A stretch of DNA of 58,303 nucleotides from Bacteroidaceae bacterium (lineage in GTDB: Bacteria; Bacteroidota; Bacteroidia; Bacteroidales; Bacteroidaceae): assembly GCA_017451645.1 (NCBI GenBank), contig JAFTNZ010000010.1, positions 1-58,303 on the forward strand. Reading direction: 5' to 3'. Position 1 is the first letter of the stretch. Every line of letters starts with the position of its first letter. This document shows positions 1,229 to 58,303 of the stretch, in pieces. The translations under genes and the position numbers were made by a program. A model generated the notes under the pieces. That model saw only the letters and a program-made list of their open reading frames with translations, made no database searches and had not been told where the DNA came from.

Positions 1229-1260
1229 TTTGGCAACGTCGAAAAGAAGATGTAATTTTG
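1229..1260 (+). promoter_or_regulatory. Bacteroidetes-type promoter of feoAB
   Basis: TTTG at 1229-1232 and TAATTTTG at 1253-1260 are 20 nt apart and fit the -33/-7 pattern. Transcription would begin near 1266, which rules out the upstream in-frame TTG at 1192 and fixes the feoAB start at 1285. Confidence 0.7.
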
Positions 1261-1284
1261 CGACAAAATAGTTGGAAAAAAGAA

Positions 1285-17082: not shown

Positions 17083-17103
17083 ACAAACAATAATCAAATA
17101 TAG

Positions 17104-41516: not shown

Positions 41517-41562
41517 ACATATCAATTTACATAACCGGTCAAACGACCATAAATTTTCGAAT

Positions 41563-41811
41563 ATGAAGAAGTATAGAAAACAAAATTTGACATTACAGGA
41601 AATTGAACATCCATTCAAGAATAATACGCTCACCTATATGGTTAAAAATCATGCGGTGCATAAAGTAATTGATTATAATCTAATCGAAGAAGCAATTGCT
41701 TCAGAATGTTTCTCGCATAAACACTTGGTATTTAACGATGGAATTACAAGACATATCCATGTCAGACATATTCCGAAACGTAGTATTACACTGCATTGTA
41801 ATGTACACTAA
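41563..41811 (+). CDS. Small hypothetical protein
   Basis: An 82-aa basic protein starting MKKYRKQNLTLQEIEHPFKN. No domain is recognised. The His/Arg-rich end GITRHIHVRHIPKRSITLHCNVH could bind nucleic acid or metal, but this is not supported further. An alternative ATG at 41494 would overlap the previous gene. It lies between the replication genes and the candidate oriT hairpin. Confidence 0.5.
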   Translation: MKKYRKQNLTLQEIEHPFKNNTLTYMVKNHAVHKVIDYNLIEEAIASECFSHKHLVFNDGITRHIHVRHIPKRSITLHCNVH

Positions 41812-41822
41812 GTAATGGTAAC

Positions 41823-41915
41823 GATTTTAGAAGGGCAAGTTTGTGTTTTAGTCCGACTAAAACTATTGGCCAACTCTATAGGTTTGCCATTGAACTTGCC
41901 TTCTAAAATCTTTTT
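41823..41915 (+). other. Nested hairpin upstream of mob genes: candidate oriT or terminator
   Basis: GATTTTAGAAGGGCAAGTT (41823-41841) pairs with AACTTGCCTTCTAAAATC (41893-41910), about 18 bp with one bulge. Inside lie a second hairpin, GTTTTAGT/ACTAAAAC (41845-41852/41856-41863), and the palindrome TTGGCCAA. TTTTT follows the outer stem. It sits 20 nt before mobC, where oriTs of Bacteroides mobilizable elements are usually found. Confidence 0.55.
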
Positions 41916-41929
41916 CTAAAATCACGAGT

Positions 41930-42277
41930 ATGACAACAAAGAAAAAAGCAGGTGGTCGTCCCAAGCTAGCCGAATATCAGAAGAGAACCAAAAGTTGCCA
42001 AGTCATGTTCACCGAATCCGACTATATCTATATCATGGATAAAGCCCAAAGAAGCGGATTGACAATCAGCGAATATTGCCATCAGGCGGCCATGAATGGA
42101 GCAGTCAAGGAACACATCCAACCTGAACAGGCAGCACTCATCAGAGACATTGCAGGTGTAGCCAACAATGTCAATCAGATTGCACATAAGATGCATGCGT
42201 TCGGACTGGAAGAAACCTACCATTCCTGTCAGGAAATCATAAACGTATTACTCAATCTCATCAACGAATCCAAGTAA
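41930..42277 (+). CDS. mobC: MobC-like mobilization accessory protein
   Basis: A 115-aa protein with an N-terminal ribbon-helix-helix region (KSCQVMFTESDYIYIMDKAQRSGLTISEYCHQAAM) and the MobC (PF05713) C-terminal helix IRDIAGVANNVNQIAHKMHAFG. MobC proteins bind oriT and help the relaxase open the DNA. It lies 3 nt before the relaxase gene. Confidence 0.88.
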   Translation: MTTKKKAGGRPKLAEYQKRTKSCQVMFTESDYIYIMDKAQRSGLTISEYCHQAAMNGAVKEHIQPEQAALIRDIAGVANNVNQIAHKMHAFGLEETYHSCQEIINVLLNLINESK

Positions 42278-42280
42278 TAT

Positions 42281-43336
42281 ATGATAGCAAAGATAAAGAC
42301 AAGAGAATCATTTGCAGCTATCGTGGATTATGCCCATGATTACGACAATGACAAGAAGAAAGCACGACTCATCGATTTTAAGGATGTATGTATCATCAGC
42401 AATAAATCAATAGCCGATTCATTTACCATCCAGGCATCCATGCGTACGAAGATTGCGAAACCTGTCAAGCATATTTCGTTAGGATTCTCTCCCAACGATG
42501 CCCATATTTTCACTGACGACGAAAAGGGTGATGAACTCATGGTAAGGATTGCTAAAGATTGGATGAAAGAGATGGGGGTCACCAATACGCAATACATCAT
42601 CGCCAGACATCTTGACACCGAGCACCCCCATTGTCATCTTGTCTTTAATCGAATAGATAACGATGGCAATGTCATTTCTGATAGTCGTGAACGAATTCGG
42701 AATATGGCGGTATGCAAACTACTCAACAAAAAATATGGATTGTATGTAGCTCCATCCAAGAGCAAGAAAATCCATGAAGACAGATTACGTGGGTATGAGG
42801 CCAAGAAACATAAATTGAGAATGGACATCAACAATATTCTGGACAAGTCATCCAATTGGGAAGAATTTTGCATACTACTGAAAGAAGCAGAAATCAGCAT
42901 CCGCTTCTTCACAAGCAGCCAAACAAATACAATCAGAGGTATTTCATTTGCGAACCATCAAATAAGTATATCTGGATCCAAATTGGAACCAAAGGTGTTA
43001 ACCTATGGCCAACTATGTCTTAATTTGGGCGAAAGAAGAATTCAGGAAAGTCCAAATCTATATGAAGAGAAGACTTTTTCTTCTTTTGTAAAAAATGAGG
43101 TTCCTGTCAACCATTCCAATGGGCATACCATAACCACTGATTCCAATTTGACGGAAAGCGGAAATAGTGATAGTACATCCTCGTCAACCGTTGGTGAAGC
43201 TATGATTGAGTTCTTGCTTCAGCCCCATCAAGTAGAAACAGGCGGTGGAGGTGGCGGTAGTGACAATCGTGGATGGCGCGATGATGACAAAGATAAGGAT
43301 AACAATAATAATCGGATCTATAAAAGAAGAAGATAA
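42281..43336 (+). CDS. mobA: Relaxase / mobilization nuclease (MobA/VirD2 type)
   Basis: A 351-aa relaxase. The N-terminal catalytic Tyr is probably Y17 in IVDYAHDYDND. The three-His metal site is in RHLDTEHPHCHLVFNRID (about 110-128), the hallmark of MOBP-type enzymes. The C-terminal tail is Gly/Asp/Asn-rich and likely disordered. It nicks oriT and leads the strand into a recipient, using a conjugation pore supplied by another element because none is coded in this window. It overlaps the next gene by one base (TAATG). Confidence 0.9.
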   Translation: MIAKIKTRESFAAIVDYAHDYDNDKKKARLIDFKDVCIISNKSIADSFTIQASMRTKIAKPVKHISLGFSPNDAHIFTDDEKGDELMVRIAKDWMKEMGVTNTQYIIARHLDTEHPHCHLVFNRIDNDGNVISDSRERIRNMAVCKLLNKKYGLYVAPSKSKKIHEDRLRGYEAKKHKLRMDINNILDKSSNWEEFCILLKEAEISIRFFTSSQTNTIRGISFANHQISISGSKLEPKVLTYGQLCLNLGERRIQESPNLYEEKTFSSFVKNEVPVNHSNGHTITTDSNLTESGNSDSTSSSTVGEAMIEFLLQPHQVETGGGGGGSDNRGWRDDDKDKDNNNNRIYKRRR

Positions 43337-44081: not shown

Positions 44082-45116
44082 TTATTCTTTAGGATTTTCT
44101 TCAAAAGGAAGAGCGTCCATAAACCTATCGAAGTCACTTTGGAATAGGCGGTCTTGTATTATTCGATACTTTTCAAACTCCGTTTCTGCATGTTCTTTTG
44201 CTTGTTCGGCAGACACTTGGCCTGTCGTTTGTAGTACTTCGTTTCCACCAGCAGCCAAAATGGTATCTATCCGCTTTGCCCAGTCTTCCATGGTCATAGG
44301 GATATGCCGTTTCGCCATTCTTTCAGCCAATTCAAGCACACCATTCACCAACTGTCCCATATCTGCCAGTTCAGTCTCTTTGAGATAGTTTTTAGCAATC
44401 ACCACGTCTGTCTTTACGATTTTACCATCGGGCGCATTTTCCCACGAAGTAAGTCCCATGTGCTCCTGCTCTGCATCAGCTCGTTCTACAATCAGTTCTG
44501 CTGCTGTACGTCCGTGAATAGCATAATGCATCTTGTTCTGCATCATCTTGAAGAACAATCGTGTGGTCGGTGCATCCCGATTGTAATCTATAGCAGTAGC
44601 ATAGATATCTGTCAGTTTCTGGTAGAATCGACGTTCCGATAGTCGAATTTCCCGTATTTCTGCTAACAGATGCTCAAAATAATCTTCGCCAAGGAACGAA
44701 CCGTTCTCCATTCTCTTCTTATCCAAAACATATCCACGTATAGCGAATTCTCGCAATACGCTCGTTGCCCATTGACGAAACTGAGTTGCACGAATGCTGT
44801 TCACACGATAACCTACGCTAATAACAGCATCGAGATTGTAAAAATGGAGCGAGCGGTTTACCTCTCTGGTTCCTTCTTGGCGAACAACCGAGATTTTCTC
44901 GGTAGTTGCTTTTTCTTCCAGTTCTCCACTATCATAAATATTTCTCAAATGAAGACTGATGTTATCTGTAGAGCAATCAAACAGCATACCCATAGCTTTC
45001 TGGGTACACCAAACTGTCTTATCTTTATAATAGACTTCAACACCTTGTTCCTTCCCTTCTATTTGAAAAATTAGGAACTCTGCTGTGCTATTTCTTATTT
45101 CTTTTCTATTTGCCAT
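44082..45116 (-). CDS. rhuM: RhuM family protein (first copy)
   Basis: A 344-aa protein of the RhuM/virulence-protein family (PF13310). KTVWCTQKAMGMLFDCSTDNISLHLRNI is a Bro-N-like DNA-binding start, SVGYRVNSIRATQFRQWAT is the family hallmark, and EHMGLTSWENAPDGKIVKTDV lies in the C-terminal part. The biochemical role is unknown; such genes are frequent in pathogenicity and defence islands. It is about 40 nt downstream of a paralogue in the same direction. Confidence 0.85.
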   Translation of the reverse strand: MANRKEIRNSTAEFLIFQIEGKEQGVEVYYKDKTVWCTQKAMGMLFDCSTDNISLHLRNIYDSGELEEKATTEKISVVRQEGTREVNRSLHFYNLDAVISVGYRVNSIRATQFRQWATSVLREFAIRGYVLDKKRMENGSFLGEDYFEHLLAEIREIRLSERRFYQKLTDIYATAIDYNRDAPTTRLFFKMMQNKMHYAIHGRTAAELIVERADAEQEHMGLTSWENAPDGKIVKTDVVIAKNYLKETELADMGQLVNGVLELAERMAKRHIPMTMEDWAKRIDTILAAGGNEVLQTTGQVSAEQAKEHAETEFEKYRIIQDRLFQSDFDRFMDALPFEENPKE

Positions 45117-45158: not shown

Positions 45159-46163
45159 TCACTCCAACAATTTTCTGATATGCTTATCAAAGTCAGAATC
45201 AATAATTTGAGTGCGATTGAATATTTCATACTCCTGTTCTGCTTTTGCCTTTGCTTGGGCTGCAGAAATATGGCCCTTGTCAGGAAGTATTTGATAGCGA
45301 CGAAAGGCAAGGAACTCGTTTACGCTATCAGAGAACTGTTTCATATTGAAAGTATTCTCTCGTTCTATAAGGTCTTCTATATAATCGAAATATCCAGTCA
45401 CCGCACGCTCTAACTGACGTATCTCCTTTTCCTGTAGATAATTCTTTGCAACAGTCACATCCGACTTCAATATACGTCCATCAGGAGAGTTCTTCCACGT
45501 AGTAAGTCCCATATGTTCTTTTGTATGATCTGCCTTATGATATATAATTTCAGCAGCAGTCTGCCCCATAATGGCATAGTGAAAACGGTTTTGAATCATC
45601 GCATAGAAGTCATGAGTTGTTGGGGAATTCTTGTCATAATCGATACTGCACTCGGCATATATATCTGTTATTTGCTGCCATATACGACGCTCACTCGCAC
45701 GGATAGAACGTACCCTCTCAAGCAATTCTCGGAAGTAATCAACTCCGAAAACTGTTTTACCTTGCTTCAGTCGCTCATCATCAAGCACAAACCCTTTCTT
45801 GATGAACTCTTTAAGAATCTTCGTAGCCCAAATGCGGAAATGTGTAGCTTTTGCTGAATTTACGCGATAACCAACGGAGATGATAGCATCCAGAGAATAG
45901 AATTTTGTCTCTTTTTGTTGAGTTTTGCCCTCGATAGCTCCATGCTGAGTGGTTATTTCCATTTTGGAAACAACCACTGTTTCGTTGAGTTCTCCTTCCT
46001 CAAATATATTCTTCAAGTGCTTACTGATGGCAGGTACACCCACATCAAATAGTTGTGCCATGGCCTTCTGTGTACACCAAAGCGTTTCATCTTTGATGAT
46101 TACTTGTACCTTTCCATCTTCATTTGGAAGATTATATAATATAAATTGAATTTCTTGCGACAT
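45159..46163 (-). CDS. rhuM: RhuM family protein (second copy)
   Basis: A 334-aa paralogue of its neighbour. The two share WCTQKAM, SVGYRVNS, ATxFRxWAT, HYAI-GxTAAE and EHMGLTxWxNxPDGxIxKxDVxxAKNYL but differ widely elsewhere, so this is an old duplication or two independent arrivals rather than a recent copy. The start region (MSQEIQFILYNLPNEDGKVQVIIKDETLWCTQKAM) keeps a fuller N-terminal domain. Confidence 0.85.
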   Translation of the reverse strand: MSQEIQFILYNLPNEDGKVQVIIKDETLWCTQKAMAQLFDVGVPAISKHLKNIFEEGELNETVVVSKMEITTQHGAIEGKTQQKETKFYSLDAIISVGYRVNSAKATHFRIWATKILKEFIKKGFVLDDERLKQGKTVFGVDYFRELLERVRSIRASERRIWQQITDIYAECSIDYDKNSPTTHDFYAMIQNRFHYAIMGQTAAEIIYHKADHTKEHMGLTTWKNSPDGRILKSDVTVAKNYLQEKEIRQLERAVTGYFDYIEDLIERENTFNMKQFSDSVNEFLAFRRYQILPDKGHISAAQAKAKAEQEYEIFNRTQIIDSDFDKHIRKLLE

Positions 46164-46347: not shown

Positions 46348-46917
46348 TTAATCCAAATCTTCAGGTTCATTATCATCATCTACATCATTATCTTCAACTA
46401 AAAAGGACGTAAATACATTGAGGAATGCAGTTTCCTTGAAAAAGTAATTTGAATCTTGCTCAATTTTCTCTTGAATATAATCAAATCCAAAATTAGCATA
46501 CTGTTCCATCTTGTCAATTAGTTTATCAACAACAGCACGAGCAGTTATATCTCCTTTGTCAAGAGCAATCCAATCTATGTCAGTGCGTGCAACAAGTGCT
46601 GCAAAAATATACTCTCTTATCTTAGGATATGCTCTTCTTCCAGTTCTTTCTTCAATATTACCCCAATACATTATAGGTTGTCCTAAGACTTTACGTTTAG
46701 CATTATCATCGATAAGAGGTTTCGAGCGGTCAAAATATAAGCCAATAAAAAATGCTATTATATAGACTTCGTATCCAGCTCCGAATATTTTACCTCTTAC
46801 ATCTTGGAATCTGTTTACACCTCTACCATAATCACAAAATACATCTATAATAGACTCTTGGTAACGCTTTTCAAATTCAGGGTTGCGTTTCCCCCATAGT
46901 TCATATATTGCTTCCAT
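46348..46917 (-). CDS. Unknown protein, last gene of the defence-like operon
   Basis: A 189-aa soluble protein I do not recognise. It looks helical, with the conserved-looking string FQDVRGKIFGAGYEVYIIAFFIGLYFDRSK and a very acidic tail (EDNDVDDDNEPEDLD). Its ATG shares a base with the stop of the Rad50-like gene (TAATG), so it is made together with that ATPase and may be its partner. DndE is a small protein expected beside a DndD-like ATPase, but the usual DndE motifs are not seen here. Confidence 0.75.
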   Translation of the reverse strand: MEAIYELWGKRNPEFEKRYQESIIDVFCDYGRGVNRFQDVRGKIFGAGYEVYIIAFFIGLYFDRSKPLIDDNAKRKVLGQPIMYWGNIEERTGRRAYPKIREYIFAALVARTDIDWIALDKGDITARAVVDKLIDKMEQYANFGFDYIQEKIEQDSNYFFKETAFLNVFTSFLVEDNDVDDDNEPEDLD

Positions 46918-49088
46918 TATTCCTTAATTTTATCAACTGTTGTACGAATAGTAGCAAGATTTGACTGATCATATCCTACAGCCTTTTTTATACGATATAC
47001 AGGACAATTAAGTTTCTCTATATCTTTCAAATGAACCTCGCCTTTTGTAATGAAATCTTTTGTAACAATAATACACTGTTTTTTTATGGTATTAATTACA
47101 TTATAGAAATCATCTTCTTTAACATCTCCAAAAGAAGATGTTGCAGCATCAAATATTAGCGGATAGTCTTCACTTCTTCTTTCTTGTGTAAAGTCTGATA
47201 TAGCAAAAAGTATTGACATATACATCACTGTTTCTTGAGAACTTGATGGCTTTTTTATTTCTGTTCTATTTGAACTGAATAATTTAATTTCAGTTGATTC
47301 ATTCGCAGTTTGAACTAAACGGATTTGACCATGGAAATCTGAAGCGCTTAATGTTTCGAGGTATTCATTTGCTTTATTCTCCATTTCAGCCAGAAAACGA
47401 CGAAGATTATCTTCCTTTGCATTACCAAATGCTTTAGCTATTTCATCGAGAGTTCTATGAACATCACGCATTACTTTAACTTGCGAACTTTGAGGATCAA
47501 GTGCATCAAGTTTTTCCTGCAAGTTTTTTTTAATACTTTCATGAATTTCCAATTCAGAATTAAGTTCTGCTAACCTTACATTCGCTCTTTCTTTCTGATT
47601 AAATAAGCCTTTGATATCATTGAAGTCTTTTTCAAGAACTGCTTCAGAAACATTTCCAGCTTGAATTAAAAGACGTGCCTTTTCATCTTGAATATCTTGA
47701 AGCTTTTCTTCTACTTTTTTTAATTCCAAACGAAATCTATGAACCAATTCTTGTCTATCAAGAATCTCTTGCGCCAATCCTGAAACCAAAGACTGGTTAC
47801 TACCGCTAAGAGATATTGACATATTGTGCAGCTCTTCAATGAAGTCGTTTTTAAATAATTCTTGTTCTTCTATATTTTTAGCCTCAGTTTCTGCTTTAAG
47901 TTTTAGTTCTACATGTCGTTTATATTCCTGAAGTTTTGCGACCATAAATTTATAAGCATCTGATCCCTCTTCTGCAGGACGACCACAAACCTTACAAATA
48001 TGGTCATTAATCATTTCTTCCATTGTTTCTTGATTTGGAAGATACCACGGTAGTTCTGGAGCTCCATTAACAAGAGTGCCTTGAATTTCTCTTACAGCTT
48101 TAAGTTTCCCAATTTCTTCGGCTTGCATTTTTACAAAATCTCGCTCTTGTTTACGCTTCTCTTTACTTAATGCGGAACATTTTTGCTTAAATTCATTAAG
48201 GATTTTTGGATAAGCACATAAAATCCATAATTTATCAAGAAGACTATGGTTATAATCAACTGCGGAGATTCTGGCTCTAAAGCTATTAAGTTTTTCAACT
48301 TGTGTTTTACGTCTATTTTCTATTTCTTTATACCTTTCAGAGGTTTCTTGATTAGCTTCCAGTTCTTCTAATTTAGTAGAGTATACTTCGATAGATTCTT
48401 CTTTTTCACGAATATCCTTCCGAAGTTCTGTAATCAGTTGATTAACATTTAGGATCTGACTCTCTATAGTTTTTGCTTCTTTAGAAACTTTATCATCGGA
48501 ACGCATCTCCTTGAGATATGCTGCATTTGATTTTTCCGCAAATACCTGAGTGTATTCAACTAGTTCGTCAAATTTTCTTATATCAGAAAATTTATCAACC
48601 AATTGCTTTAAAGCAGTTTTATCATTAAACACATTTAATTCTGATTCACCTTTAAACATACTGAATCTTTGAATAAATGCGTCATAACATCTGTCGATTA
48701 AGCGCTTACCACTAACTTGTTCGCGTTCAGCTCCATTTGTCTCACATCCTCTGAAAGATAATGGACCTACCTTAAATGAATTTTCTCCAGTTCTTTCAAA
48801 CATAAATGATTTTTCAACACTCTTCAAGCCATCATGTTCAAATGACATAAAAACGGAAACTTCATCATGTTCTCCAACTTCAAGTTTTGATTTACGCATT
48901 TCTGATATATGCTCTAAACTACCCTTGTCAATAGTTGTATTAAACAGCCATTGTAACGCTTCAAAGAATGTGGTTTTACCGTCACCATTTTCTCCTAATA
49001 TAAGTGTCAGACCATCGGAGAAATTAAACACATTCTTATCTCCGTAATAACTACGGAAATTTTTAATTTTTATCTCCTTGATTATCAT
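46917..49088 (-). CDS. SMC/Rad50-like ATPase, DndD-like
   Basis: A 723-aa protein with the head-coil-hook-coil-head plan of Rad50/DndD. N-terminal head: IKIKNFRSYYGDKN and Walker A GENGDGKT at 32-39. Long coiled coils (about 190-345 and 375-590) surround a single C-x-x-C (CKVC, 365-368), a zinc-hook-like tip for dimerising. C-terminal head: SSSQETVMYMSIL in place of a standard LSGGE signature, and LIFDAATSS as a Walker B variant without the usual second acidic residue. The atypical motifs separate it from a housekeeping Rad50. It overlaps both neighbours (ATGA with the 76-aa gene, TAATG with the 189-aa gene), suggesting a three-part complex. Confidence 0.85.
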   Translation of the reverse strand: MIIKEIKIKNFRSYYGDKNVFNFSDGLTLILGENGDGKTTFFEALQWLFNTTIDKGSLEHISEMRKSKLEVGEHDEVSVFMSFEHDGLKSVEKSFMFERTGENSFKVGPLSFRGCETNGAEREQVSGKRLIDRCYDAFIQRFSMFKGESELNVFNDKTALKQLVDKFSDIRKFDELVEYTQVFAEKSNAAYLKEMRSDDKVSKEAKTIESQILNVNQLITELRKDIREKEESIEVYSTKLEELEANQETSERYKEIENRRKTQVEKLNSFRARISAVDYNHSLLDKLWILCAYPKILNEFKQKCSALSKEKRKQERDFVKMQAEEIGKLKAVREIQGTLVNGAPELPWYLPNQETMEEMINDHICKVCGRPAEEGSDAYKFMVAKLQEYKRHVELKLKAETEAKNIEEQELFKNDFIEELHNMSISLSGSNQSLVSGLAQEILDRQELVHRFRLELKKVEEKLQDIQDEKARLLIQAGNVSEAVLEKDFNDIKGLFNQKERANVRLAELNSELEIHESIKKNLQEKLDALDPQSSQVKVMRDVHRTLDEIAKAFGNAKEDNLRRFLAEMENKANEYLETLSASDFHGQIRLVQTANESTEIKLFSSNRTEIKKPSSSQETVMYMSILFAISDFTQERRSEDYPLIFDAATSSFGDVKEDDFYNVINTIKKQCIIVTKDFITKGEVHLKDIEKLNCPVYRIKKAVGYDQSNLATIRTTVDKIKE

Positions 49089-49315
49089 ACATTACGTTTT
49101 AGATATTCATTAATTTCTTTCCATAATTCATTCGAAGACGCACCTTCTCCTGTGCGTTTGATTATTTGTGCGACAGCGTTTATAACATGATTCTCTGAAT
49201 CTAATGCTTGGTAAATACTGCCAATTTCATTTAGTTCGTAGTTACCAAATTTCATTAAGCGTTCATTCATCAGAACTGCATGAAGCATTTTGTCTTCGTT
49301 GTTAATATATGCCAT
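49085..49315 (-). CDS. Small protein linked to the SMC-like ATPase
   Basis: A 76-aa protein (MAYINNEDKMLHAVLMNERL start) predicted to be all helix, with NYELNEIGSIYQALDSENHVINAVAQII in the middle and ELWKEINEYLKRNV at the end. I do not recognise it. The stop overlaps the ATPase start by 4 nt. Small helical middle components next to ABC-type ATPases occur in ABC-3C conflict systems, a comparison based only on size and position. Confidence 0.7.
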   Translation of the reverse strand: MAYINNEDKMLHAVLMNERLMKFGNYELNEIGSIYQALDSENHVINAVAQIIKRTGEGASSNELWKEINEYLKRNV

Positions 49316-49326
49316 AATATATTATT

Positions 49327-51621
49327 TTAGAACAATGATAAATCGTAATAAGATAAAATTTCTGATAACTCAGAATATGCAAAATCTGCATTTTCTGACA
49401 TTTCTGCAAAATCTTTAACTCGTTTTAATTCACTCGCCAATAAACTTCGTTCCATTGTAAAGCACTCTGAGGCTGTACTAATTTCAGGGGCAACAACAAG
49501 GTCATGTATCTCTGCTATGTGTTTATCTTTATGTAAACGAAGTATTCTTCCTCGTCTTTGAATAAATTGGCGTGGATTTCCCGTACTTGCACAAAAAATA
49601 GCTAGTTCGCTTCGTGGAACATCTACACCTTCGTCCAAACATTTCATTGATGTAAGAACTTCTAATTCTCCTTTTGCAAAACTATCTAATATCGTATTTC
49701 GTTCTTTAATTCCGGAGATAAATTTCTTTACAGTCGTAGTAGGACTTACATCCTGAACAATTTGAGTATATCTGTCGATAATTAGATCTGTTTCACTGTC
49801 TTGTGGTATAAATTCAGATGAATCAAAAAAGTCCGCACTATCATCATCTGGTTTACTACCTTCTGGTACGTAGACCAATGTATATTTTAAATTTCCTTTT
49901 TCCTTATATCTGTTTTCAAGTATTTGCTTAAAAACAGCTTCTTTATTTATAGCTTTATGGATTATGCGTTTTCTTTTAAGAAGTAAATTCATTAAAATAT
50001 CATCTCCTTTTGGAAAACTATCTTTATCGTATATAAAGTATTTTGCTAATTGTTTTGATACTTTGATGTATTCAAGCATTTCCTCATTAGTAAGTCGTAC
50101 TATATGAGGATAGTATTTGTATCTACATAAGTATTTGTTACCAATAGCATCTTGCATAGAATACTCAAATGTATATTCGTTATTGGCACACCCAAAAAAC
50201 TCCATAATACTTCTCGTACCTTTAGTATCAAATTGTCTCTCTGGAGTAGCTGATAGTCCTATTCTACGAGCAAACTTGACAGTTTCTAATCTATCAAGGA
50301 TTCTTCCAGCTCCCATATTATGTGCCTCATCGGCTATTAATAATATCTGTTTGGTTGCCTTCTTATTAAAATCAATTAAGTTGCGGAATATACTATCCCT
50401 TGCGAAAGAAGCATATGTCGCAATTATAATGTATGAGGGTTCAATATCAGAAAAATTAAAATTTTCTTTATTTTTTATATCATCCAGTTCGTTAGCCCAA
50501 TCTTTATTCTTTGAACATACTTTTACAATATTATTAAAATGGAATTTTCTACATTCTTTTTCCCATTGGTCTACAAGAGTTATAGTAGGTACAAGGATTA
50601 TTGCTTTGTAAAAATTAAACTTATTATATATATTGAGTAAGCAATTAAGTGAAGTAAGAGTCTTTCCTGTACCAGTTGCCATGGCAAATAACCCCTTTTG
50701 CTTGTTGGGTTCGCTTTTCCATTTATTAAAAGCCTCTATTTGATAATCACGAGGACTCCCATATGGGAATGAAGGTTTTTCCTCCACATGAGATTTATTC
50801 AAAGTATTCGCGTTGATTCTGTCAATAATTGCATTAACTTTTGATTTTGCTCTAAATAAGGCATTAATAATACTAAGAGGAAGCTCTTCTTGTGAGCTAT
50901 TATTAATTATCTCTACTTCATCATTGAGGAGTTGTTTAATATCTTTATTATCAAAATGTTTGCAAATATCTGTTCGAATAGCTTGTGGTGATAGGTATGA
51001 AACAGTTTGGTCTTTTTCAGAAAATGTTAGTTCAAAATCATTCTCAATATCAGATATACGAATTGCATCATTTACACTATCCCAATCACAGAAAGCAGAT
51101 ATACTTTCGCGATTTTCAATAAGGGCTGTACGAGAAAAATTGCATGAACCATCAAAAGCAACTTTGTTCAAACCATCATAAAAGATACCAATCTTACTAT
51201 GAGATATTCCATTGCCTTCGTCTGGTTTAATTATTTTAATATCCAACCTGTTGTTACGGATAAGCCATGATAAGCACTCAAAGAAGTGCTTGCCTCTATC
51301 TGATAATGTATTTTTTATCGATTCTAAATCATTAAGGTTAAATGCTGGTATAATTAAATTCTTATTTTGTGCGATAAGAATGACATCTTTATCTTCTGTT
51401 GAAAGAATGTCATTTATAATCATCCTCATTCGTCCACCATTATAAAGAAAAGCAGCAAAACCATCTGCTAAGACATTGATAGCAGAAGAAGAAAAGAACC
51501 CTAATTTTAAGTCAAATTGTGTTGCATTACACAATGCTTCAGAGAAGAAACCGACAGGTTCCCACTCTGTTTTAGACTTAAATCGTCTACTTTGAGGCCA
51601 TATGATGTCTGTTTTAAGCAT
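49327..51621 (-). CDS. PLD-nuclease plus SF2 helicase fusion
   Basis: A 764-aa protein. The N-terminal phospholipase-D-like part (about 1-200) has a single HxK motif, GISHSKIGIFYDG, then FDGSCNFSRTALIEN. The SF2 helicase (about 285-760) has the Q-motif region YGSPRDYQIEAFNKW, MATGTGKT (motif I), LLIADEAHNMGAG (II, DEAH), GLSATPER (III) and FIQRRGRILR (VI). Related fusions act in restriction and defence clusters. The ATG at 51621 lies one base after the stop of the PIN-like gene. It could cut or unwind unmodified or invading DNA; this is inferred. Confidence 0.88.
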   Translation of the reverse strand: MLKTDIIWPQSRRFKSKTEWEPVGFFSEALCNATQFDLKLGFFSSSAINVLADGFAAFLYNGGRMRMIINDILSTEDKDVILIAQNKNLIIPAFNLNDLESIKNTLSDRGKHFFECLSWLIRNNRLDIKIIKPDEGNGISHSKIGIFYDGLNKVAFDGSCNFSRTALIENRESISAFCDWDSVNDAIRISDIENDFELTFSEKDQTVSYLSPQAIRTDICKHFDNKDIKQLLNDEVEIINNSSQEELPLSIINALFRAKSKVNAIIDRINANTLNKSHVEEKPSFPYGSPRDYQIEAFNKWKSEPNKQKGLFAMATGTGKTLTSLNCLLNIYNKFNFYKAIILVPTITLVDQWEKECRKFHFNNIVKVCSKNKDWANELDDIKNKENFNFSDIEPSYIIIATYASFARDSIFRNLIDFNKKATKQILLIADEAHNMGAGRILDRLETVKFARRIGLSATPERQFDTKGTRSIMEFFGCANNEYTFEYSMQDAIGNKYLCRYKYYPHIVRLTNEEMLEYIKVSKQLAKYFIYDKDSFPKGDDILMNLLLKRKRIIHKAINKEAVFKQILENRYKEKGNLKYTLVYVPEGSKPDDDSADFFDSSEFIPQDSETDLIIDRYTQIVQDVSPTTTVKKFISGIKERNTILDSFAKGELEVLTSMKCLDEGVDVPRSELAIFCASTGNPRQFIQRRGRILRLHKDKHIAEIHDLVVAPEISTASECFTMERSLLASELKRVKDFAEMSENADFAYSELSEILSYYDLSLF

Positions 51622-51622
51622 T

Positions 51623-52456
51623 TTACGCAATCTTAAATATTTTATATTTTTTCATCGTAGATAATATCATATTAATTTTATTAACTATATACAAAGATGA
51701 AGGCTCTGGTCGATATTTCCGAATAATTTGACGAAGTTCTTTCTTTTGAAATCTCCCCAAATCTTCTATTGCTTTATACATTTCTTCGTAATTACCATTG
51801 TGATAATTGTATATGATACCATCTAATACCTTGATAATATCATTATTAGATTTAGAGTTGCTGATTTTGGACCTATATTCTTCTATGTTTGTGACAAATT
51901 GGCGTTCCTTAATATTATACTCAGATTTAAGATTTTCAAGAAACCGTTTAAGGTTATTTTCTGAAAACCTATCACTGTCACTGTGACAAAACATATATAA
52001 AATCAAATCGATTGAGTCACCAAGTAAACCAAGTTGTTGAAACATAAAATATTCACGAAATTGATCCGTTGCAGGCTTATCGTCTGTATATAAATTAATA
52101 TGCGTCATCTCATCTCGGCTTAGATATAGAGACAATAATAATGAATAATACTCACCATCGCTTTTGTAATGATGGGTAAATTCTTTAATTTCATCACAAT
52201 TTTCTGCTTTTATATTACTAACAATTTCATCATTGTTCTTAACACATAACATCAGATAAGAAAGACTTCTATCTATCCTATCATTTATCTCTTTTGACCA
52301 TCCATTCTTAAAAATATTTTTCTTAACCTCATCCAATACAATCTCTGCAATCTTAATGTTGTAAGATTGCAAATGGTTGTACAAAATTTCATCTTCATCA
52401 ATTCTAAAAATATTGATTAATGTACATGCATCCAATATGAAAGGTCGTTTATTCAT
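51623..52456 (-). CDS. PIN-like domain nuclease (predicted)
   Basis: A 277-aa protein beginning MNKRPFILDACTLINIFR. The spaced acidic residues fit a PIN fold: Asp in FILDACTL, Glu in IVLDEVKK, Asp/Glu in KSDGEYYSLLLSL, and the pair in LYTDDKPATDQF. PIN domains are Mg-dependent ribonucleases or nucleases. The second half (from about 150) is helical and unrecognised. The start overlaps the AAA gene's stop as TGATG, so the two are coupled. The call rests on motif reading only. Confidence 0.65.
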   Translation of the reverse strand: MNKRPFILDACTLINIFRIDEDEILYNHLQSYNIKIAEIVLDEVKKNIFKNGWSKEINDRIDRSLSYLMLCVKNNDEIVSNIKAENCDEIKEFTHHYKSDGEYYSLLLSLYLSRDEMTHINLYTDDKPATDQFREYFMFQQLGLLGDSIDLILYMFCHSDSDRFSENNLKRFLENLKSEYNIKERQFVTNIEEYRSKISNSKSNNDIIKVLDGIIYNYHNGNYEEMYKAIEDLGRFQKKELRQIIRKYRPEPSSLYIVNKINMILSTMKKYKIFKIA

Positions 52457-53559
52457 CAACAACAAATTATTTCGTCTTTGATTGAATCAAAGTATTGTGT
52501 ATCAATTACATCTTTACCCTCTGATATAGCATACTCCAATAGTAGGGAAAAAATCTCATTATACCGTCTAAGAGATGCTCCCTTTTCGTTACGAATAATG
52601 GAATCGATAAGTTCAGTGGTAAAGGGTTCATATTCCGATTTTCCACAGTCTTTTATCCTATGTACAGGGTTATTCATCAGCTCTTGCATGTATTCCTTTA
52701 ACGCCATATCATCAGGAGTTCCTAGTTCTATGTGAGCTCTAATTCTGGTTTTAAGAGCACTTAAAAGATACTCGCCTAAATCCTCTCTATTCATCGTTGC
52801 CGTTTGTGTCAAGTTTAAGAATATCAATAAATTATTCGGCGTAAAATCCAACAATGAACGTATAAAATTATTGACATTGCTAATATTCGTACTTGTTTGC
52901 AATGAAATATCTTCAAACTCATCTATCCAAATAATAACACTTGAGCATGCTTGTTTTTGATATGTTATAAATGAAAATAACGCTCCCAAGAGCTCTATAT
53001 AGTCATTATCCGTGGATAATTTACGAGAAACACCAGCATTTATCAAGCTATCAGAAATCTTATAATTTCCGTACAAATATGTTTTAAGTACTTTTTCAGA
53101 CGCCTGATTATTGAATATTAATTTGACAATATTTCTAATAAATATATTGTCCGTAATATTATTGAGAATAGTATCTTCAATATGTAAATCATTATCGTTA
53201 GCAAGTTGTCTTATCTCTCCGATATTGAGCTTGTCAATGATTTGGGTGTATATATCCTTAACAGGCTCTTTGCTTTTAGGGAAACTAATATAAAACGATA
53301 GTGGTTTCTTTTTAGCATCTGCTAAATCTATTAGGACATCCTCCTTATTAAAATATCTTGCTGCATGAGTTTTACCACTTCCATACTCTCCCCAGTTCAA
53401 AACCAAAGTTGATGGTGGTGTGGATATCGAACGGCTAATTCGCTTTTCTATCTTCTGTTTGGTATCTTTAAAACCCGCCCAAATGAGTTCACTTGGATTG
53501 GTTGCAGGCGTAACTCTAAATGGATTAGTTATTAACCCATATTTTTCAAAACTATTCAT
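52456..53559 (-). CDS. ORC/Cdc6-like AAA+ ATPase
   Basis: A 367-aa STAND/ORC-type ATPase starting MNSFEKYGLITNPFRVTPA. Walker A is GEYGSGKTHAARYF (about 57-70), Walker B VIIWIDEFEDISLQ and sensor-1-like LLIFLNLTQTAT. A lid with GASLRRYNEIFSLLLEYA follows. The proteins closest in style couple DNA recognition to an effector in transposon and defence operons. It lies 2 nt after the 539-aa gene and overlaps the PIN-like gene, the likely partner. Confidence 0.82.
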   Translation of the reverse strand: MNSFEKYGLITNPFRVTPATNPSELIWAGFKDTKQKIEKRISRSISTPPSTLVLNWGEYGSGKTHAARYFNKEDVLIDLADAKKKPLSFYISFPKSKEPVKDIYTQIIDKLNIGEIRQLANDNDLHIEDTILNNITDNIFIRNIVKLIFNNQASEKVLKTYLYGNYKISDSLINAGVSRKLSTDNDYIELLGALFSFITYQKQACSSVIIWIDEFEDISLQTSTNISNVNNFIRSLLDFTPNNLLIFLNLTQTATMNREDLGEYLLSALKTRIRAHIELGTPDDMALKEYMQELMNNPVHRIKDCGKSEYEPFTTELIDSIIRNEKGASLRRYNEIFSLLLEYAISEGKDVIDTQYFDSIKDEIICC

Positions 53560-53561
53560 AA

Positions 53562-55181
53562 TTATTTTATTTTTTGAATATAACCATCTTTGTACTGTTC
53601 TTGATATTTATATATATATCCAATGTTGTCTGGCCCAGAGAATAAATTCTTTATAGCAGTTGTGTCAATTACCTGTTTTTCACAAAAATATAACATATAT
53701 TTGGTATAATATGTCATCAAAGAGAAAGTAACTCTATTCGGAGCTAAAGTCTTGAATAAAGAAAAACAGTCATTAAGATACTTATCAAATGTCCCTTTTC
53801 CCCATTTCTGATATATTCCATCACACCAAATTGCATTAACAATATGCATATAATGACCATCGCAGAAACTCTCTGAATTAATCACTTTGTGTTTAATAAT
53901 ATCATTCCATGTTGACAAGTGATAATACAACTTCTCACCAGTTTCAGTTAGCTTAAAAGACGATTTTGTCATATCAATAATATCCAAATCGTACAGCCAA
54001 TGTAATCTAGGCATTATAACATGCTCAAGATACGTTGCAGAGGTTTTCCATTCTGATATTCTCTTTCTTATAATCTTCAATGTGATGATTTTCATAGAGC
54101 TATATCCGCTCAGTTCTTTTAGGCAATTGTCTATATATCGCAATAATTCTACTTGATAAATATTTTTAAGAACATTAAACTGAATATTTGGATTTATAAA
54201 TAGTTGTTCTATAAGCACATTTATATATACATAATCATTCCGTAATAACGCTTCTAAAAAAAACGCTTTATCAAGTCTCGACAACTCAAATATATTTTGG
54301 GTGACACCTTGGGCAGGTGGCATTGCGCAAAATACCTTACCGATTTTACCAATACGACAATTTTCACGAGTTTGATGAATTATACCAATATGTTCTGCAA
54401 GTTCTATATACGGTTTTGCGGATGCACCTGTCTTAGTTATAATAATTTCGCCTTTATTATTCTTATAATCAGCTAAGTATTCTTTAAACTGCTGACAATA
54501 TTGTTCAAATGATTTGCAAATAGTGCTTCTTGATATATGGGGACGCTCTTGTAACATCATTAGTAACACTTTCAAATAGCCTAATCGTCTCGTCTTAGTA
54601 TTTGAAGGTAAAATGTTAATGCTAAGACTATCCTTATATATTTGCTCGTCGGTGTAAATAGCATCAACATCACTCTCTGTTACACACTTATTTATAAGTT
54701 GCAATATTTCTATATTATCCCAATATCGTTGATTTAAAACAAAACTAGCTCCATACTCCCACGCCTCTGGGCATCCCATAAGTACACAATCCTCATCGGA
54801 TAGACAACGATAACCAATTTCATATGAATCAAAGATAGAATCATAATGCAGAGATTTTATTTTACGATTTATTTTAGAAACAATATACGTAATTGGTATA
54901 TTACAATCTTGTGATTCAAGTTCATCATCAACATCTATGGCAAATCCAAAAAATATAATTATCGAAACAACATCTTGTTTTTCTATGTTGGTAATAATCT
55001 CTTCATCAATATCGTCAATACTAAAAAAAGCATCTAACTTGTCAGTTGTCAACTTTTCTAATGACGACAGTTTGATGATTATACATAGGCTATCAATGTA
55101 AAACCATAGTTCGCCCTCATTCTCTCTAAGGTGAGATTCATAAGAGCAATTGTGATATAAATATTGCAGTACTCGTTTCAC
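53562..55181 (-). CDS. Unknown protein with winged-helix-like C-terminal parts
   Basis: A 539-aa protein with no recognised family. The GTG at 55181 is the only start close to the upstream stop (6 nt). Around residues 215-275 RPHISRSTICKSFEQY and GASAKPYIELAEHIGII look like winged-helix units. A second such unit (YLEHVIMPRLHWLYDLDIIDM and SFKLTETGEKLYYHL) lies at about 390-440. The gene is strongly AT-rich, more than the two genes before it. The position between the DndC-like gene and the AAA ATPase suggests a DNA-binding or adaptor subunit (inference). Confidence 0.7.
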   Translation of the reverse strand: MKRVLQYLYHNCSYESHLRENEGELWFYIDSLCIIIKLSSLEKLTTDKLDAFFSIDDIDEEIITNIEKQDVVSIIIFFGFAIDVDDELESQDCNIPITYIVSKINRKIKSLHYDSIFDSYEIGYRCLSDEDCVLMGCPEAWEYGASFVLNQRYWDNIEILQLINKCVTESDVDAIYTDEQIYKDSLSINILPSNTKTRRLGYLKVLLMMLQERPHISRSTICKSFEQYCQQFKEYLADYKNNKGEIIITKTGASAKPYIELAEHIGIIHQTRENCRIGKIGKVFCAMPPAQGVTQNIFELSRLDKAFFLEALLRNDYVYINVLIEQLFINPNIQFNVLKNIYQVELLRYIDNCLKELSGYSSMKIITLKIIRKRISEWKTSATYLEHVIMPRLHWLYDLDIIDMTKSSFKLTETGEKLYYHLSTWNDIIKHKVINSESFCDGHYMHIVNAIWCDGIYQKWGKGTFDKYLNDCFSLFKTLAPNRVTFSLMTYYTKYMLYFCEKQVIDTTAIKNLFSGPDNIGYIYKYQEQYKDGYIQKIK

Positions 55182-55187
55182 TATAAT

Positions 55188-56294
55188 TTATATAAAACAG
55201 TTAGCACAAGGAATTTCATCATCGTCGTCGAACATGTCCACAAGTAAGCCACTGGTTGCTTTTGCTTTTAACGCTTCTTGTTTTTTGATATAGTCCAACT
55301 TTATTTGGCGTACTCGATCCGGGTGACTCAACTCTGCAAGAGTTTCGCCTTGAATCCAAGTATACCCATCTTTCTCGTATTCCATAGATTTTTTGTAGAG
55401 ATCAGGGTGCTGTTCTAGAAGCCAAATCCATTCGATACGTTGCTGAAAGAAACAAAAATAGCATCCAGAACGACTACGGCAATATTCTCCTTTTTTGCCA
55501 TCTACTTCAAACTCTATAGGATTGTAGTACGCAGGAATACCGACACCACTTTCTTCCAAAATCCTAAATATATCCTCTTTAACAAGTATATCTTCGTTGT
55601 CTATTAAAGGAAATTCTTCAAGTTTACCTACAGGGTAGTCTGTAGTTTTCAAGAATTCATATATAACTCTATTGAAAGTCTTTATACTCAAATCTAGTAG
55701 AGAGTTTAATTTGCGACTATAATAGAATGACTTATTGATTGGAGTAGATGTAATTTCGACTGCTTCTTCTTTTATATTATCTGAAGCCCATTCCTTATAT
55801 AATTTAGTAATTATATCCAAATTATCATTATGTAAAGCTTTATGTATAACATCAAGACTCCAGATATTTCTTCTGAATGGAAATATAGCCTGAATGTTAG
55901 GTTTAGTCGAAACATAACCTTCTCGATCTTCATCTCCACGAATTCCTACATAAGATACTGTTGGCTCATCACCGACGAACTTTTCAAATTCGGCAAGTTT
56001 CATTTTGTTGGTACACCAGCGAGCTTGGGGTGATGGCAAATAGCCACCACTAATCTTGAGGAAATGGTCAAATGGAGTAGGCTCTGGACTACCTTCTGCG
56101 GCTTTAAGTCTCTCAACTTTACCAAGGAAGGATTCCAAGTTATCTACCAACTTTTCGGTTTCCTCTAATTCACATCCTGTATCAGAGTTGTAGTATTCAA
56201 CCTCTAATGTAGGATATTTCTGCTTCATATAGATGGCCAAAGCAGCACTATCCTTACCTCCGGAAATTCCTAATACGTGTCTTACTTTAGTCAT
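55188..56294 (-). CDS. DndC-like PAPS-reductase-family protein (PP-loop, Fe-S)
   Basis: A 368-aa protein of the phosphoadenosine-phosphosulfate reductase/ATP-pyrophosphatase superfamily. The PP-loop SGGKDS is at 11-16, the RWCTNKMK motif with Cys94 at 92-99 and VGIRGDEDREGY at about 116-127. The cysteine cluster C272-x5-C278-x2-C281 (CRSRSGCYFC), together with Cys94, could hold a 4Fe-4S centre as in DndC. A further CANC ends the protein (363-366). DndC/SspD use such a centre to place sulfur in the DNA backbone; BrxP of BREX-4 is another relative. The ATG overlaps the preceding gene's stop by 8 nt. The helical insert at about 150-245 is larger than I expect for DndC. True activity is unproven. 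Confidence 0.85.
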   Translation of the reverse strand: MTKVRHVLGISGGKDSAALAIYMKQKYPTLEVEYYNSDTGCELEETEKLVDNLESFLGKVERLKAAEGSPEPTPFDHFLKISGGYLPSPQARWCTNKMKLAEFEKFVGDEPTVSYVGIRGDEDREGYVSTKPNIQAIFPFRRNIWSLDVIHKALHNDNLDIITKLYKEWASDNIKEEAVEITSTPINKSFYYSRKLNSLLDLSIKTFNRVIYEFLKTTDYPVGKLEEFPLIDNEDILVKEDIFRILEESGVGIPAYYNPIEFEVDGKKGEYCRSRSGCYFCFFQQRIEWIWLLEQHPDLYKKSMEYEKDGYTWIQGETLAELSHPDRVRQIKLDYIKKQEALKAKATSGLLVDMFDDDDEIPCANCFI

Positions 56295-58303
56295 TGTTCA
56301 GTTTCTTTTTAATAATACTTAAAAGTGCATAAGCATCAATGTCGTTATCACCAGAAAGGAGCAAGTTAATTTTTGCCTCCAGTGCTTTTGCTTGCTTTGC
56401 CTTTGCTGTACTCAATTGAACGACCTGCTGTGTTTCCACTCCATCATTTGCTATCATTTCAAAACGGAAGAAGTTATCATCACTTGTTAGGCCCTTGTTG
56501 CTTAATTCTGCATACTTAAGCAACTCCTTAAATGAATGTACAAGGTTATCAATCAAATATGCCTCTTCCTCATCCATTAAAGTCTCTAACTGTTTGTCTA
56601 ATACAACATAAGCAAGAGACTGATACCAAGTTACTCTATCTGTATTCTGAGCTAAAACACGCGTTAAGAATGTCTTCTGTCGCTCAGTTAATAGGTATGT
56701 TTTAATAGAAGAGTAACGCTGGTCCAATTCAGCTTTGTATGACGTAAATTCCTTAGACTTCAGACCTAGTTCCTCTACAAGGATACGCTCCAATCTGTTA
56801 ATAAGATTAGAGTAACACATACGAAGGTCACGAATTGCCTTTTGCAAGAGCTCAACATATCGTTTTAACACTTCATCATTGTGAGCTATCTCAGCATCCT
56901 TGAAGCCTAGTGCACGAGGTAGATCGTCAAAGAAAGTCTTTTCAGGATCCTTTGCTGATGCTAATGCAGCGCGGAATTTAACGGTTGTTTTGTCAAGTCG
57001 CTTAGTCTGCTTTGCATACTTATTAAGCTTCTTGTAGAAAATCAAGAATGGTTTAATAGTCTCTATCAAACTGTCTGCAGTGAACTCTGCGTCCTGTATT
57101 ATTCCTAATGCTTCACGGTACTTGCTGAACAGATCCAATTTTACGCCCTCAACATTAAACGCCTTCACAGAGAACCCTGCAGATGACTTTTGCATAATAT
57201 CCAAAACCTCACGAGTAATTGTATGAATATAGATACCAGTATCGTTGTATAACGAATAGTCATTCTTTTTAATGATTAAGAATGCAGGCAACCACATATC
57301 AATAACACCCTGTTTTAGCTTGAATGGGCGTGAACGTAATATTTTGATAAGTTCGCCCAACTTGCGAGGTTTCTCCTTTGTGCTATCCAAGAAAGCCTCA
57401 CACACATTCCATAGTGGCATAAAGCTCTCAGAACGAGGCTCTCCAAGTAGATACTCTCTCCCCAAACGTCTATGGATACCTGTATTACGCAACAGTGTTA
57501 AATAGATAGTCTTTTCTGGTGGAAATTTGCAATCTTCGAAGCCAAGATTCTCTTCTGTACCATTCTCTAACAAATGAGCAAGGAAATTGACACGTGCAGT
57601 AGAAATAGCGCTGCTTGGCTTATGCTTATTGACCATCTCGTTAATATACACTGGCGTGTCACAATAAACCTGGTCACAAATTTCCGATAATTTCTTGTTA
57701 AATGCGGCTTTTGATGAGATATTAATAACTTCACCTTTATACACCCAAACAACATCTGAGTTGTAGTTAAATAAGGTATTAAGCACACTCATATTTAACA
57801 ACTCTTGCTCGTGTGCAATCAATGATTTAATCTCCTTTTGGGCTACTTTGTCATTACTGTCGATATCATTCTGAACATATGCTAACTTATCCAATTGCCA
57901 TACGTGATCGATAATTCGATCTGCTTTTTTGAAATAGGCATATAAAATAGCCTCCTCAACATTCGCAATTTGTTGCAAAATGTCTTTAAGTGAAATATCC
58001 TCGTTAAAAATGAGGTTTATAAAACCGTCAATTTCGTCTAGTGGCTGTTGAATAATAGGCTGCTCTGAAATCTTATATTCAAAATATCTAGGAGTACCTT
58101 TTCGAAAGTATGAGGCATTTGCAAACTCAATCGGAAGATTGAAGTTTGTAAGCAATTTCTCTATAACATCTTTTGATCTAGGAACAATGCCTGCTGCCTT
58201 CAATAACTCACCTTCGATATTTACATCAGTTCCCTCAAACAAAATGTACTGCGACTTATATGTTGCGTATCGAATAATCTTGTGTTGAGTCAGAAGATCG
58301 ATG
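56287..58303 (-). CDS. Large protein, C-terminal 671 residues (5' end outside window)
   Basis: The frame stays open from the stop at 56287 to the window edge. The codons upstream of the TTG at 58242 continue as IIRYATYKSQYILFEGTD, so the protein is longer and its start is not in view. The visible part is helical and charged. FPPEKTIYLTLLRN and RSRPFKLKQGVIDMWLPAFLI resemble the region behind the P-loop in large defence ATPases of the BrxC/PglY or DUF6079 kind. No Walker motif is visible here, so this is only a suggestion. It is the first seen gene of the operon. Confidence 0.75.
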   Translation of the reverse strand, partial: IDLLTQHKIIRYATYKSQYILFEGTDVNIEGELLKAAGIVPRSKDVIEKLLTNFNLPIEFANASYFRKGTPRYFEYKISEQPIIQQPLDEIDGFINLIFNEDISLKDILQQIANVEEAILYAYFKKADRIIDHVWQLDKLAYVQNDIDSNDKVAQKEIKSLIAHEQELLNMSVLNTLFNYNSDVVWVYKGEVINISSKAAFNKKLSEICDQVYCDTPVYINEMVNKHKPSSAISTARVNFLAHLLENGTEENLGFEDCKFPPEKTIYLTLLRNTGIHRRLGREYLLGEPRSESFMPLWNVCEAFLDSTKEKPRKLGELIKILRSRPFKLKQGVIDMWLPAFLIIKKNDYSLYNDTGIYIHTITREVLDIMQKSSAGFSVKAFNVEGVKLDLFSKYREALGIIQDAEFTADSLIETIKPFLIFYKKLNKYAKQTKRLDKTTVKFRAALASAKDPEKTFFDDLPRALGFKDAEIAHNDEVLKRYVELLQKAIRDLRMCYSNLINRLERILVEELGLKSKEFTSYKAELDQRYSSIKTYLLTERQKTFLTRVLAQNTDRVTWYQSLAYVVLDKQLETLMDEEEAYLIDNLVHSFKELLKYAELSNKGLTSDDNFFRFEMIANDGVETQQVVQLSTAKAKQAKALEAKINLLLSGDNDIDAYALLSIIKKKLNND

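Follow-up and report, generated by a model that had tools for sequence, protein, structure and literature searches.

The SspABCD-SspE and SspABCD-SspFGH systems (PMC8092258) have the marking module SspB-SspC-SspD in common, and the DndCDEA-PbeABCD systems of archaea (PMC6459918) carry four genes in the order PbeA-PbeB-PbeC-PbeD. Parts of the first module and a gene set in the order of the second are joined in a nine-gene operon on contig JAFTNZ010000010.1 of a Bacteroidaceae bacterium (GenBank assembly GCA_017451645.1); the window of this analysis is that entire contig (C38, 58303 bases). The CxC ABC-ATPase/DndE systems (PMC10853773) also have an HKD-superfamily 2 (SF2) helicase, a small protein, an ABC ATPase and a protein in the place of DndE, and BREX type 4 shares homologues of SspB, SspC and SspD (PMC12839542). 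These and all further statements about published work draw on passages of the papers concerned. The operon departs from the Ssp systems in having no SspE or SspFGH among its nine genes and a PbeABCD-like restriction partner, and from the archaeal systems in having Ssp instead of Dnd, a CxxC hook, and strongly diverged PbeC and PbeD; the passages of PMC10853773 describe neither an Ssp partner nor an exchange slot. BREX type 4 was set aside for the nine genes, as PADLOC, applied to these nine only, returned no PglZ or BrxL match; the only BrxP trace among them is 22 bits in SspD. A Dnd partner in the host genome was likewise set aside, with no DndC match in the 72.6%-complete assembly and 3 of the 10 genomes in the same search over the cut-off. 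We consider the operon likely to be a phosphorothioate-based restriction-modification system in which modules for Ssp marking and Pbe restriction are combined with an exchangeable cassette.

Both modules carry questions from earlier work. As printed in PMC8092258, 2,211 of 2,678 sspBCD modules occur without sspE and sspFGH, and other restriction partners are asked about there. DNA cutting by Pbe is disputed (PMC6459918 against, PMC10853773 for), and PMC10853773 doubts Pbe as a phosphorothioate restriction module on the grounds of Pbe loci without Dnd; the same paper mentions PIN and other nucleases near Dnd genes. Strains with phosphorothioate genes and pbeA-D are counted in PMC7464106, the ssp share not being given in the passages concerned. 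No description of an Ssp-Pbe operon or of the slot occurs in the passages of PMC8092258, PMC10853773, PMC6459918, PMC11931770, PMC12839542, PMC7464106, PMC12707154 and PMC11676413. Each module is known, and the Ssp-Pbe combination and the slot are new as far as searched; priority is not proven, because this literature negative covers mainly open-access papers without their supplements, and the 2020 ABC-ATPase classification and the first paper on SspABCD lie outside it.

The operon consists of nine minus-strand open reading frames (ORFs) that extend from 46348 up to the contig end (lengths in amino acids, aa):

56287-58302, minus strand: SspC, the large Ssp-module ATPase, represented by its C-terminal 671 aa (PADLOC)
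55188-56294, minus strand: SspD, DndC-like ATP-pyrophosphatase/PAPS-reductase-type sulfur-transfer enzyme (PADLOC, motifs)
53562-55181, minus strand: X1, first gene of the slot cassette, weak winged-helix signal (PF14947 below cut-off)
52456-53559, minus strand: slot AAA+ ATPase, faint TniB/BrxD/ORC-like resemblance (profiles below cut-off, Walker motif)
51623-52465, minus strand: slot PIN-like protein (weak PF01850 in the family, invariant acidic residues)
49327-51630, minus strand: PbeA, HKD (PLD) endonuclease fused to an SF2 helicase (PADLOC, motifs)
49085-49315, minus strand: protein in the PbeB position, 76 aa (place and size)
46917-49088, minus strand: divergent PbeC, Rad50/DndD-like ABC ATPase with coiled coil and CxxC hook, 723 aa
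46348-46917, minus strand: protein in the PbeD position (the place of the DndE cognate), 189 aa (two-step BLAST chain)

Counted from 46348, the junctions are a 1-nucleotide (nt) overlap, a 4-nt overlap, an 11-nt gap, an 8-nt overlap and a 10-nt overlap, followed towards 58302 by a 2-nt gap, a 6-nt gap and an 8-nt overlap. An earlier note on this DNA had described nine minus-strand genes with overlaps or gaps of at most about 11 nt, in agreement with this range from a 10-nt overlap to an 11-nt gap. The assembly amounts to 2.5 megabases, and the ninth ORF (56287-58302) has no start because the contig ends there.

Relatives of the operon were collected by a scan with SspD over one genome for each of 84,980 species, which yielded 300 relatives, the best 80 being kept by similarity. 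Ranked in this way, the 80 are the nearest relatives and not a random sample, and their titles are mostly Bacteroidales or members of that order. Homologues of all nine genes occur in the same order in 5 of the 80 (L014, L022, L024, L025 and L067, in our numbering of loci), which places the nine-gene order beyond chance; identity in these five is 32-59% for the seven slot and Pbe proteins.

The PADLOC matches mean that two named phosphorothioate modules cover, with differing strength, six of the nine genes: SspC (PDLC02776, 738 bits), SspD (PDLC02782, 291 bits) and PbeA (PDLC02706, 1062 bits over the whole model, 1-722 of 722) carry this assignment. The earlier note had recognized a defence-like operon around a DndC-like sulfur enzyme, which is SspD, and had stated that no single named system covers all nine genes, which the PADLOC search bears out. 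Its view that the operon lacks known partners and matches no known combination is overturned, the 'large protein' being a truncated SspC and the PLD-helicase, 76-aa, Rad50-like and 189-aa genes a Pbe-type module.

The SspC match spans positions 393-1037 of the 1039-position profile, so that the first third of the protein is lost; a Walker A motif is present in all 73 SspC relatives of at least 1000 aa, and the corresponding part of the window SspC would be off the contig. An SGGKDS PP-loop and two CxxC pairs are found in the window SspD and in each of the 80 relatives. Single-sequence PDB searches with SspC and with SspD returned nothing, and a PF01507 profile search of the host genome was too strict, missing SspD although it is present. 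By clustering, SspB lies upstream of SspC in 74 of the 80 relatives; the one representative scanned matches SspB with 280 bits and DUF4007 with 237 bits. In the relatives' order, the place of SspB in the window genome would be just past the contig end, contrary to the earlier judgement that this partner was missing. The host genome also encodes an aminotransferase class V (Aminotran_5) protein on contig C12 (500 bits), a candidate that could be the sulfur source by analogy with the Ssp systems elsewhere that IscS serves as desulfurase (PMC8092258).

Within the Pbe module, PbeA additionally matches NCBIfam TIGR04095 (phosphorothioation restriction enzyme) with 383 bits, below the cut-off of 600. 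The HKD motif, Walker A and DEAH each occur in 64 of 64 PbeA relatives of at least 700 aa, and all three are present in the window PbeA. The 76-aa protein matches 62 of 63 small proteins of one cluster from the relatives and is a putative PbeB by its position between PbeA and PbeC and by its size. The 723-aa ATPase matches PADLOC PbeC with up to 65 bits over its N-terminal part only and shares 36% identity with a Dnd-linked PbeC across 108 aa; its more distant relative from L126 reaches 102.7 bits over most of the PbeC model. The P-loop and the hook cysteines align between the window PbeC, one Dnd-linked PbeC and two other PbeC, and the hook residues C365, C368 and G369 are aligned in 12 of 12. 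The hook of the window PbeC reads CxxCG and not the CxC form of the zinc hook; the pattern in 60 relatives is CxxCG in 52, CxCG in none and neither in 8, and other PbeC checked by pattern comprise six with CxC and two (Lactiplantibacillus) with CxxC. The 189-aa protein is connected to PbeD by a chain of two very small BLAST searches, from the window to L097 and L098 (E 2.7e-9 and 3.3e-11) and from the L098 protein to proteins annotated 'phosphorothioation-associated protein 4' (E 2.5e-4 and 5e-4). A direct profile comparison was weak (hhalign probability 9%), the family had no DndE match and nothing usable in a PDB profile search, and PADLOC matched neither the 189-aa protein nor a control PbeD. 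Among the 80 loci, five PbeD are 380-483 aa long, and L080 carries a second PbeC-like gene (16360-18324, 654 aa) directly 3' of PbeD.

The association of the two modules extends across the relatives. SspC lies upstream of SspD in 76 of the 80, 70 have PbeA on the strand of SspD and downstream of it, and SspB, SspC, SspD, PbeA, PbeC and PbeD are all present in 56. The ten without a downstream PbeA consist of six with SspE-cluster genes, three contig ends and one locus (L044) with other genes; SspE-cluster genes, named from one scanned representative, occur in nine of the 80 in all, three of them in the slot and six without Pbe. Within the family, SspD was found in 12 of 151 genomes, the host included, and of the eight read, seven have PbeA or part of it (a 333-aa piece in L133) and one (L131) has SspE without Pbe; several of these loci are the same contigs as among the 80, and so they provide no independent count.

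A search that started from PbeA, over 395 evenly drawn Bacteroidota genomes (E<=1e-30), gave matches in ten, the host being one. Six of the other nine (L093-L096, L100 and L101) have Ssp genes in the stretch read (12.6-19.9 kilobases, kb) and no DndC in the genome; L096 shows only the end of SspD, at its edge. The remaining three have DndC over the cut-off at about 2.6, 7.5 and 11 kb from PbeA and no SspC or SspD in the stretch. L093-L101 and the 80 loci derive from different collections, in which organisms may overlap. In L093-L096 and L126, PbeA is immediately preceded by an aminotransferase class V gene, of the family of SspA and DndA (Pfam 274 bits in L093, the other four being 45-67% identical to it). 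The Ssp genes of L093, L095, L096 and L126 are on the opposite strand and face the PbeA unit, and those of L094 run in the same direction. No aminotransferase class V gene of that family occurs in the 80 SspD-derived loci.

Among plasmids, 13 records carry PbeA, of which ten were taken as distinct; the other three are apparent near-copies by name, length or score only. Dnd genes accompany PbeA on four of the ten (L108, L144, L140 and L143), SspABCD-type genes face PbeC-PbeD-PbeA on one from Rhizobium indigoferae (L141), and on five (L107, L109, L110, L142 and L145) neither Ssp nor Dnd genes appear in the stretch read, which was 10-15 kb as far as the record extended (L142 is cut at the record start). 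The proposition that PbeA always has a phosphorothioate partner was abandoned after this census, the tie of Pbe to phosphorothioate thus not being universal. The Rhizobium PbeC has a CxC hook and the Bacteroidota PbeC near the window have CxxC; for this reason the Ssp-Pbe pairings in the two groups may be independent events. On two Hymenobacter plasmids (L105 and L106), SspBCD-type genes are followed by further partner sets, either DUF262 and SIR2-family genes or genes for a helicase, for a histidine-kinase-like ATPase and for a PLD protein that stands separately. On L107, a tRNA-guanine transglycosylase gene (1238-3241) lies about 7 kb from an archaeal Pbe module with no Dnd match in the stretch, where Pbe is perhaps paired with a deazaguanine DNA mark.

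The three genes between SspD and PbeA in the window occupy a slot of variable content, an empty slot being one without an ORF of at least 60 aa and each cluster of contents being named from one scanned representative. The slot is empty in 41 of 70 loci and holds X1-AAA-PIN in 7, a pair (c8-c9) with a DndB-like c9 (PF14072, 111 bits) in 5, a DUF262-kinase pair in 4 (and in 1 more together with an additional ORF), a trio whose first gene encodes a histidine-kinase-like ATPase in 4 (and variants of it in 2), SspE in 3 (representative 952 bits) and a single unclassified ORF in 3. A small gene and a DGQHR (DndB-like) gene that resemble the c8-c9 pair also stand beside PbeD on two of the Dnd-Pbe plasmids (L108:14722-16517 and L144:19790-21564). 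Exchange can be followed at the nucleotide level: L013 and L014 are 85% identical up to the end of SspD and 88% identical again from the start of PbeA, the slot itself showing no match over 150 nt, and the same pattern is seen in L014/L015 (76% and 75%) and L017/L016 (79% and 78%). L015 comes from Rikenella microfusus and has no X1. On the SspD tree, slot content requires at least 23 changes over 75 loci (6 of 81 rows without a clear slot label were left out), compared to a mean of 32.7 and a minimum of 30 in 300 shuffles; slot content is therefore partly inherited and often changed. The window and L014 are 94% identical in SspD and only 39% in X1, the L014 X1 being nearest to that of L067 (60%), so the cassette and the marker module have moved separately. 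On the cohesion of the nine genes, which the earlier note had expected in homologous operons, the outcome is divided: SspBCD and PbeABCD mostly stay together, and in most relatives other genes or none stand in place of the three slot genes. Between SspC and SspD there is a further gap, which is empty in 65 of 76 loci and holds PARIS-like genes (AriA-like/PDC-M31) in 6 and YhcG-like genes (PDC-S02) in 3. A PARIS-like ATPase and partner stand inside the Ssp operon in L033, L045, L068, L075 and L079, the one pair scanned being AriA-like/PDC-M31A and PDC-M31B.

Ten copies of the X1-AAA-PIN cassette were seen, one in the window, one in L126 and eight among the 80 loci, and each of them immediately follows SspD. 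The eight were found through SspD and hold that place by construction; a search with X1 as query over 395 genomes of the class gave one strong non-self copy, L126, again directly after SspD. The same query over 395 genomes of the phylum gave one weak match (G375, 19 bits, uncounted), and plasmids and viral contigs gave none. X1 is 38-41% identical to its eight relatives and had no PADLOC, PHROG or PDB match and no meaningful NCBIfam match; PF14947 (HTH_45) was detected in five of nine family members, below the cut-off (best E 0.0016). The slot AAA+ ATPase matches PF13401, TniB and BrxC_BrxD below the cut-off and TIGR03015 (XrtA-ATPase) far below it (E 2.6e-7, 30 bits), and its Walker A (GEYGSGKT) and WxDEFE motifs are invariant in eight of eight members; its PDB profile search gave nothing usable, TFIID bromodomain chains being taken as chance. 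In the PIN-like family, D12, E46, E105, D128 and D129, which would correspond to a PIN active site, are kept in eight of eight members, and a PDB profile search gave weak unrelated matches only. The L126 copies of X1 and of the PIN protein had no HTH and no PIN match in Pfam. The PP-loop, AAA, PLD-SF2 and Rad50/DndD-like calls of the earlier note hold up, and its PIN-like call does so weakly (PF01850 in two of eight members, best E 0.0047, the window member not among them). In our reading, the cassette may be a second effector linked to the sulfur mark, given its position and the SspE and DndB-like genes that occur in the same place.

Proteins related to sulfur-binding domains stand at the edge of the operon in 17 of the 80 loci, either downstream of PbeD at a distance of up to about 2 kb or immediately ahead of SspB on the opposite strand. 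Sulfur-binding domains bind phosphorothioate DNA. Two of the edge proteins (residues 1-300 of a 646-aa protein, and a protein of 171 aa) match SBDHga1 (PDB 8h0l) with E 3.7e-14 and 2.3e-12, respectively; work on phosphorothioate binding by such domains is cited in PMC12839542. The sulfur-binding-domain protein after PbeD in one locus shares its C-terminal part with an extended PbeD in another (L083:16340-18280 and L072:15484-16632; 30% over 192 aa, E 6e-26), which hints that PbeD and a mark reader could act together.

The identities of SspC, SspD and PbeA, the gene order, its conservation and the swapping are read from sequence; the chemistry, the self/non-self logic and the roles of PbeB-PbeD and of the cassette are inferred. 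The operon probably puts a sulfur tag on the host's own DNA and acts against invading DNA that lacks it. SspD would receive sulfur from a cysteine desulfurase whose gene lies elsewhere, SspB, encoded past the contig end, would nick a short motif, and SspC, as a large AAA+ ATPase, would position SspD such that sulfur enters one strand of the host DNA. PbeC and PbeD, a Rad50-like ATPase and a protein in the place of DndE, would then inspect DNA and, where it is unmarked, license the HKD nuclease-helicase PbeA under regulation by PbeB, halting phage replication. As a second effector tied to the same mark, X1-AAA-PIN may use the winged helix of X1 and the AAA+ ATPase to sense DNA or a failure of the first line, with the PIN protein cleaving RNA or DNA, probably a back-up measure to halt the cell. 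The broader reading, on which we are evenly divided, is that a phosphorothioation hub exists in the Bacteroidota, in which one SspBCD feeds a standing PbeABCD and one plug-in effector from an interchangeable set in a fixed slot, X1-AAA-PIN being an undescribed mark-dependent effector.

Several points weigh against a phosphorothioate-based system with an exchangeable effector. SspB and the N-terminus of SspC are not in the window, since the contig ends inside SspC, and SspB was not found elsewhere in the incomplete assembly by a search that had no positive control. The best PADLOC match of the 723-aa ATPase is LmuB (76.7 bits), above PbeC, and the PbeC and PbeD identities are drawn from weak or indirect links. 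The window has no sulfur-binding-domain gene, half of the PbeA plasmids taken as distinct lack both Ssp and Dnd genes in the part read, and the role suggested for the cassette draws on position, weak domain signals and analogy. The plasmids, together with the CxC/Pbe systems without Dnd in many taxa (PMC10853773), would fit a defence island in which SspBCD and PbeABCD merely cluster, each working alone and Pbe ignoring phosphorothioate. We consider this unlikely, however, as in 70 of the 80 relatives PbeA comes after SspD and is transcribed in the same direction, all nine other Bacteroidota PbeA genomes have an Ssp or Dnd module nearby, a desulfurase-family gene directly precedes PbeA in five loci, and the Ssp-Pbe neighbourhood recurs on the Rhizobium plasmid. 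It is very unlikely that the locus is a decaying remnant, silent in its host genome: the assembly lacks the start of the operon, but the break falls at the contig end, none of the eight complete ORFs is interrupted, and the tested motifs are retained in SspD, PbeA and PbeC.

The nature of the cassette leaves more room for alternatives. SspFGH is likewise a set of three genes beside SspD, and SspF has a Walker A (PMC8092258), such that X1-AAA-PIN could be a divergent SspFGH and the whole an ordinary SspABCD-SspFGH system with Pbe added. This identification was rejected, and we hold it to be extremely improbable: PADLOC detects SspF, SspG and SspH in an Agrobacterium control (817, 727 and 2300 bits) yet gives no Ssp match to X1, the AAA+ ATPase or the PIN-like protein, and profile comparisons of X1 with SspG and SspF and of the ATPase with SspF and SspH, four of nine possible, yielded nothing. 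A real, if doubtful, possibility is that the slot cassettes are independent defence genes, for example an abortive-infection trio, that have settled at a tolerant place and share the operon but have nothing to do with the sulfur mark. In its favour, the slot has varied contents that are exchanged, and the SspC-SspD gap also takes YhcG-like and PARIS-like genes; conversely, two of the slot contents, SspE and the DndB-like gene, are related to phosphorothioate by family (one representative each), and the X1 query found its sole strong non-self copy after SspD and none in plasmids or viral contigs.

The earlier note had also placed the operon on a mobilizable island beside rhuM genes, and Pfam agrees. 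A MobC/NikA-like gene (41930-42277) and a relaxase gene (42281-43336) adjoin the operon, and with a DUF3987/primase gene they represent a mobilizable element beside it (39738-43336, the relaxase being of MobA type). Two tandem RhuM-family genes (44082-45116 and 45159-46163; PF13310, 357 and 349 bits) lie between the relaxase gene and the operon.

The analysis puts forward PbeABCD as a candidate restriction partner for 'orphan' sspBCD modules. With PbeA downstream in 70 of the 80 nearest SspD relatives, and the Ssp or Dnd neighbours of all nine other Bacteroidota PbeA genomes, it offers a testable answer to the questions raised in PMC8092258 and PMC10853773. The exchange slot provides a ready list of candidate effectors, the undescribed trio included. 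Should the hub exist as proposed, it would explain many of the 'orphan' sspBCD modules as well as the Pbe modules that occur without Dnd.

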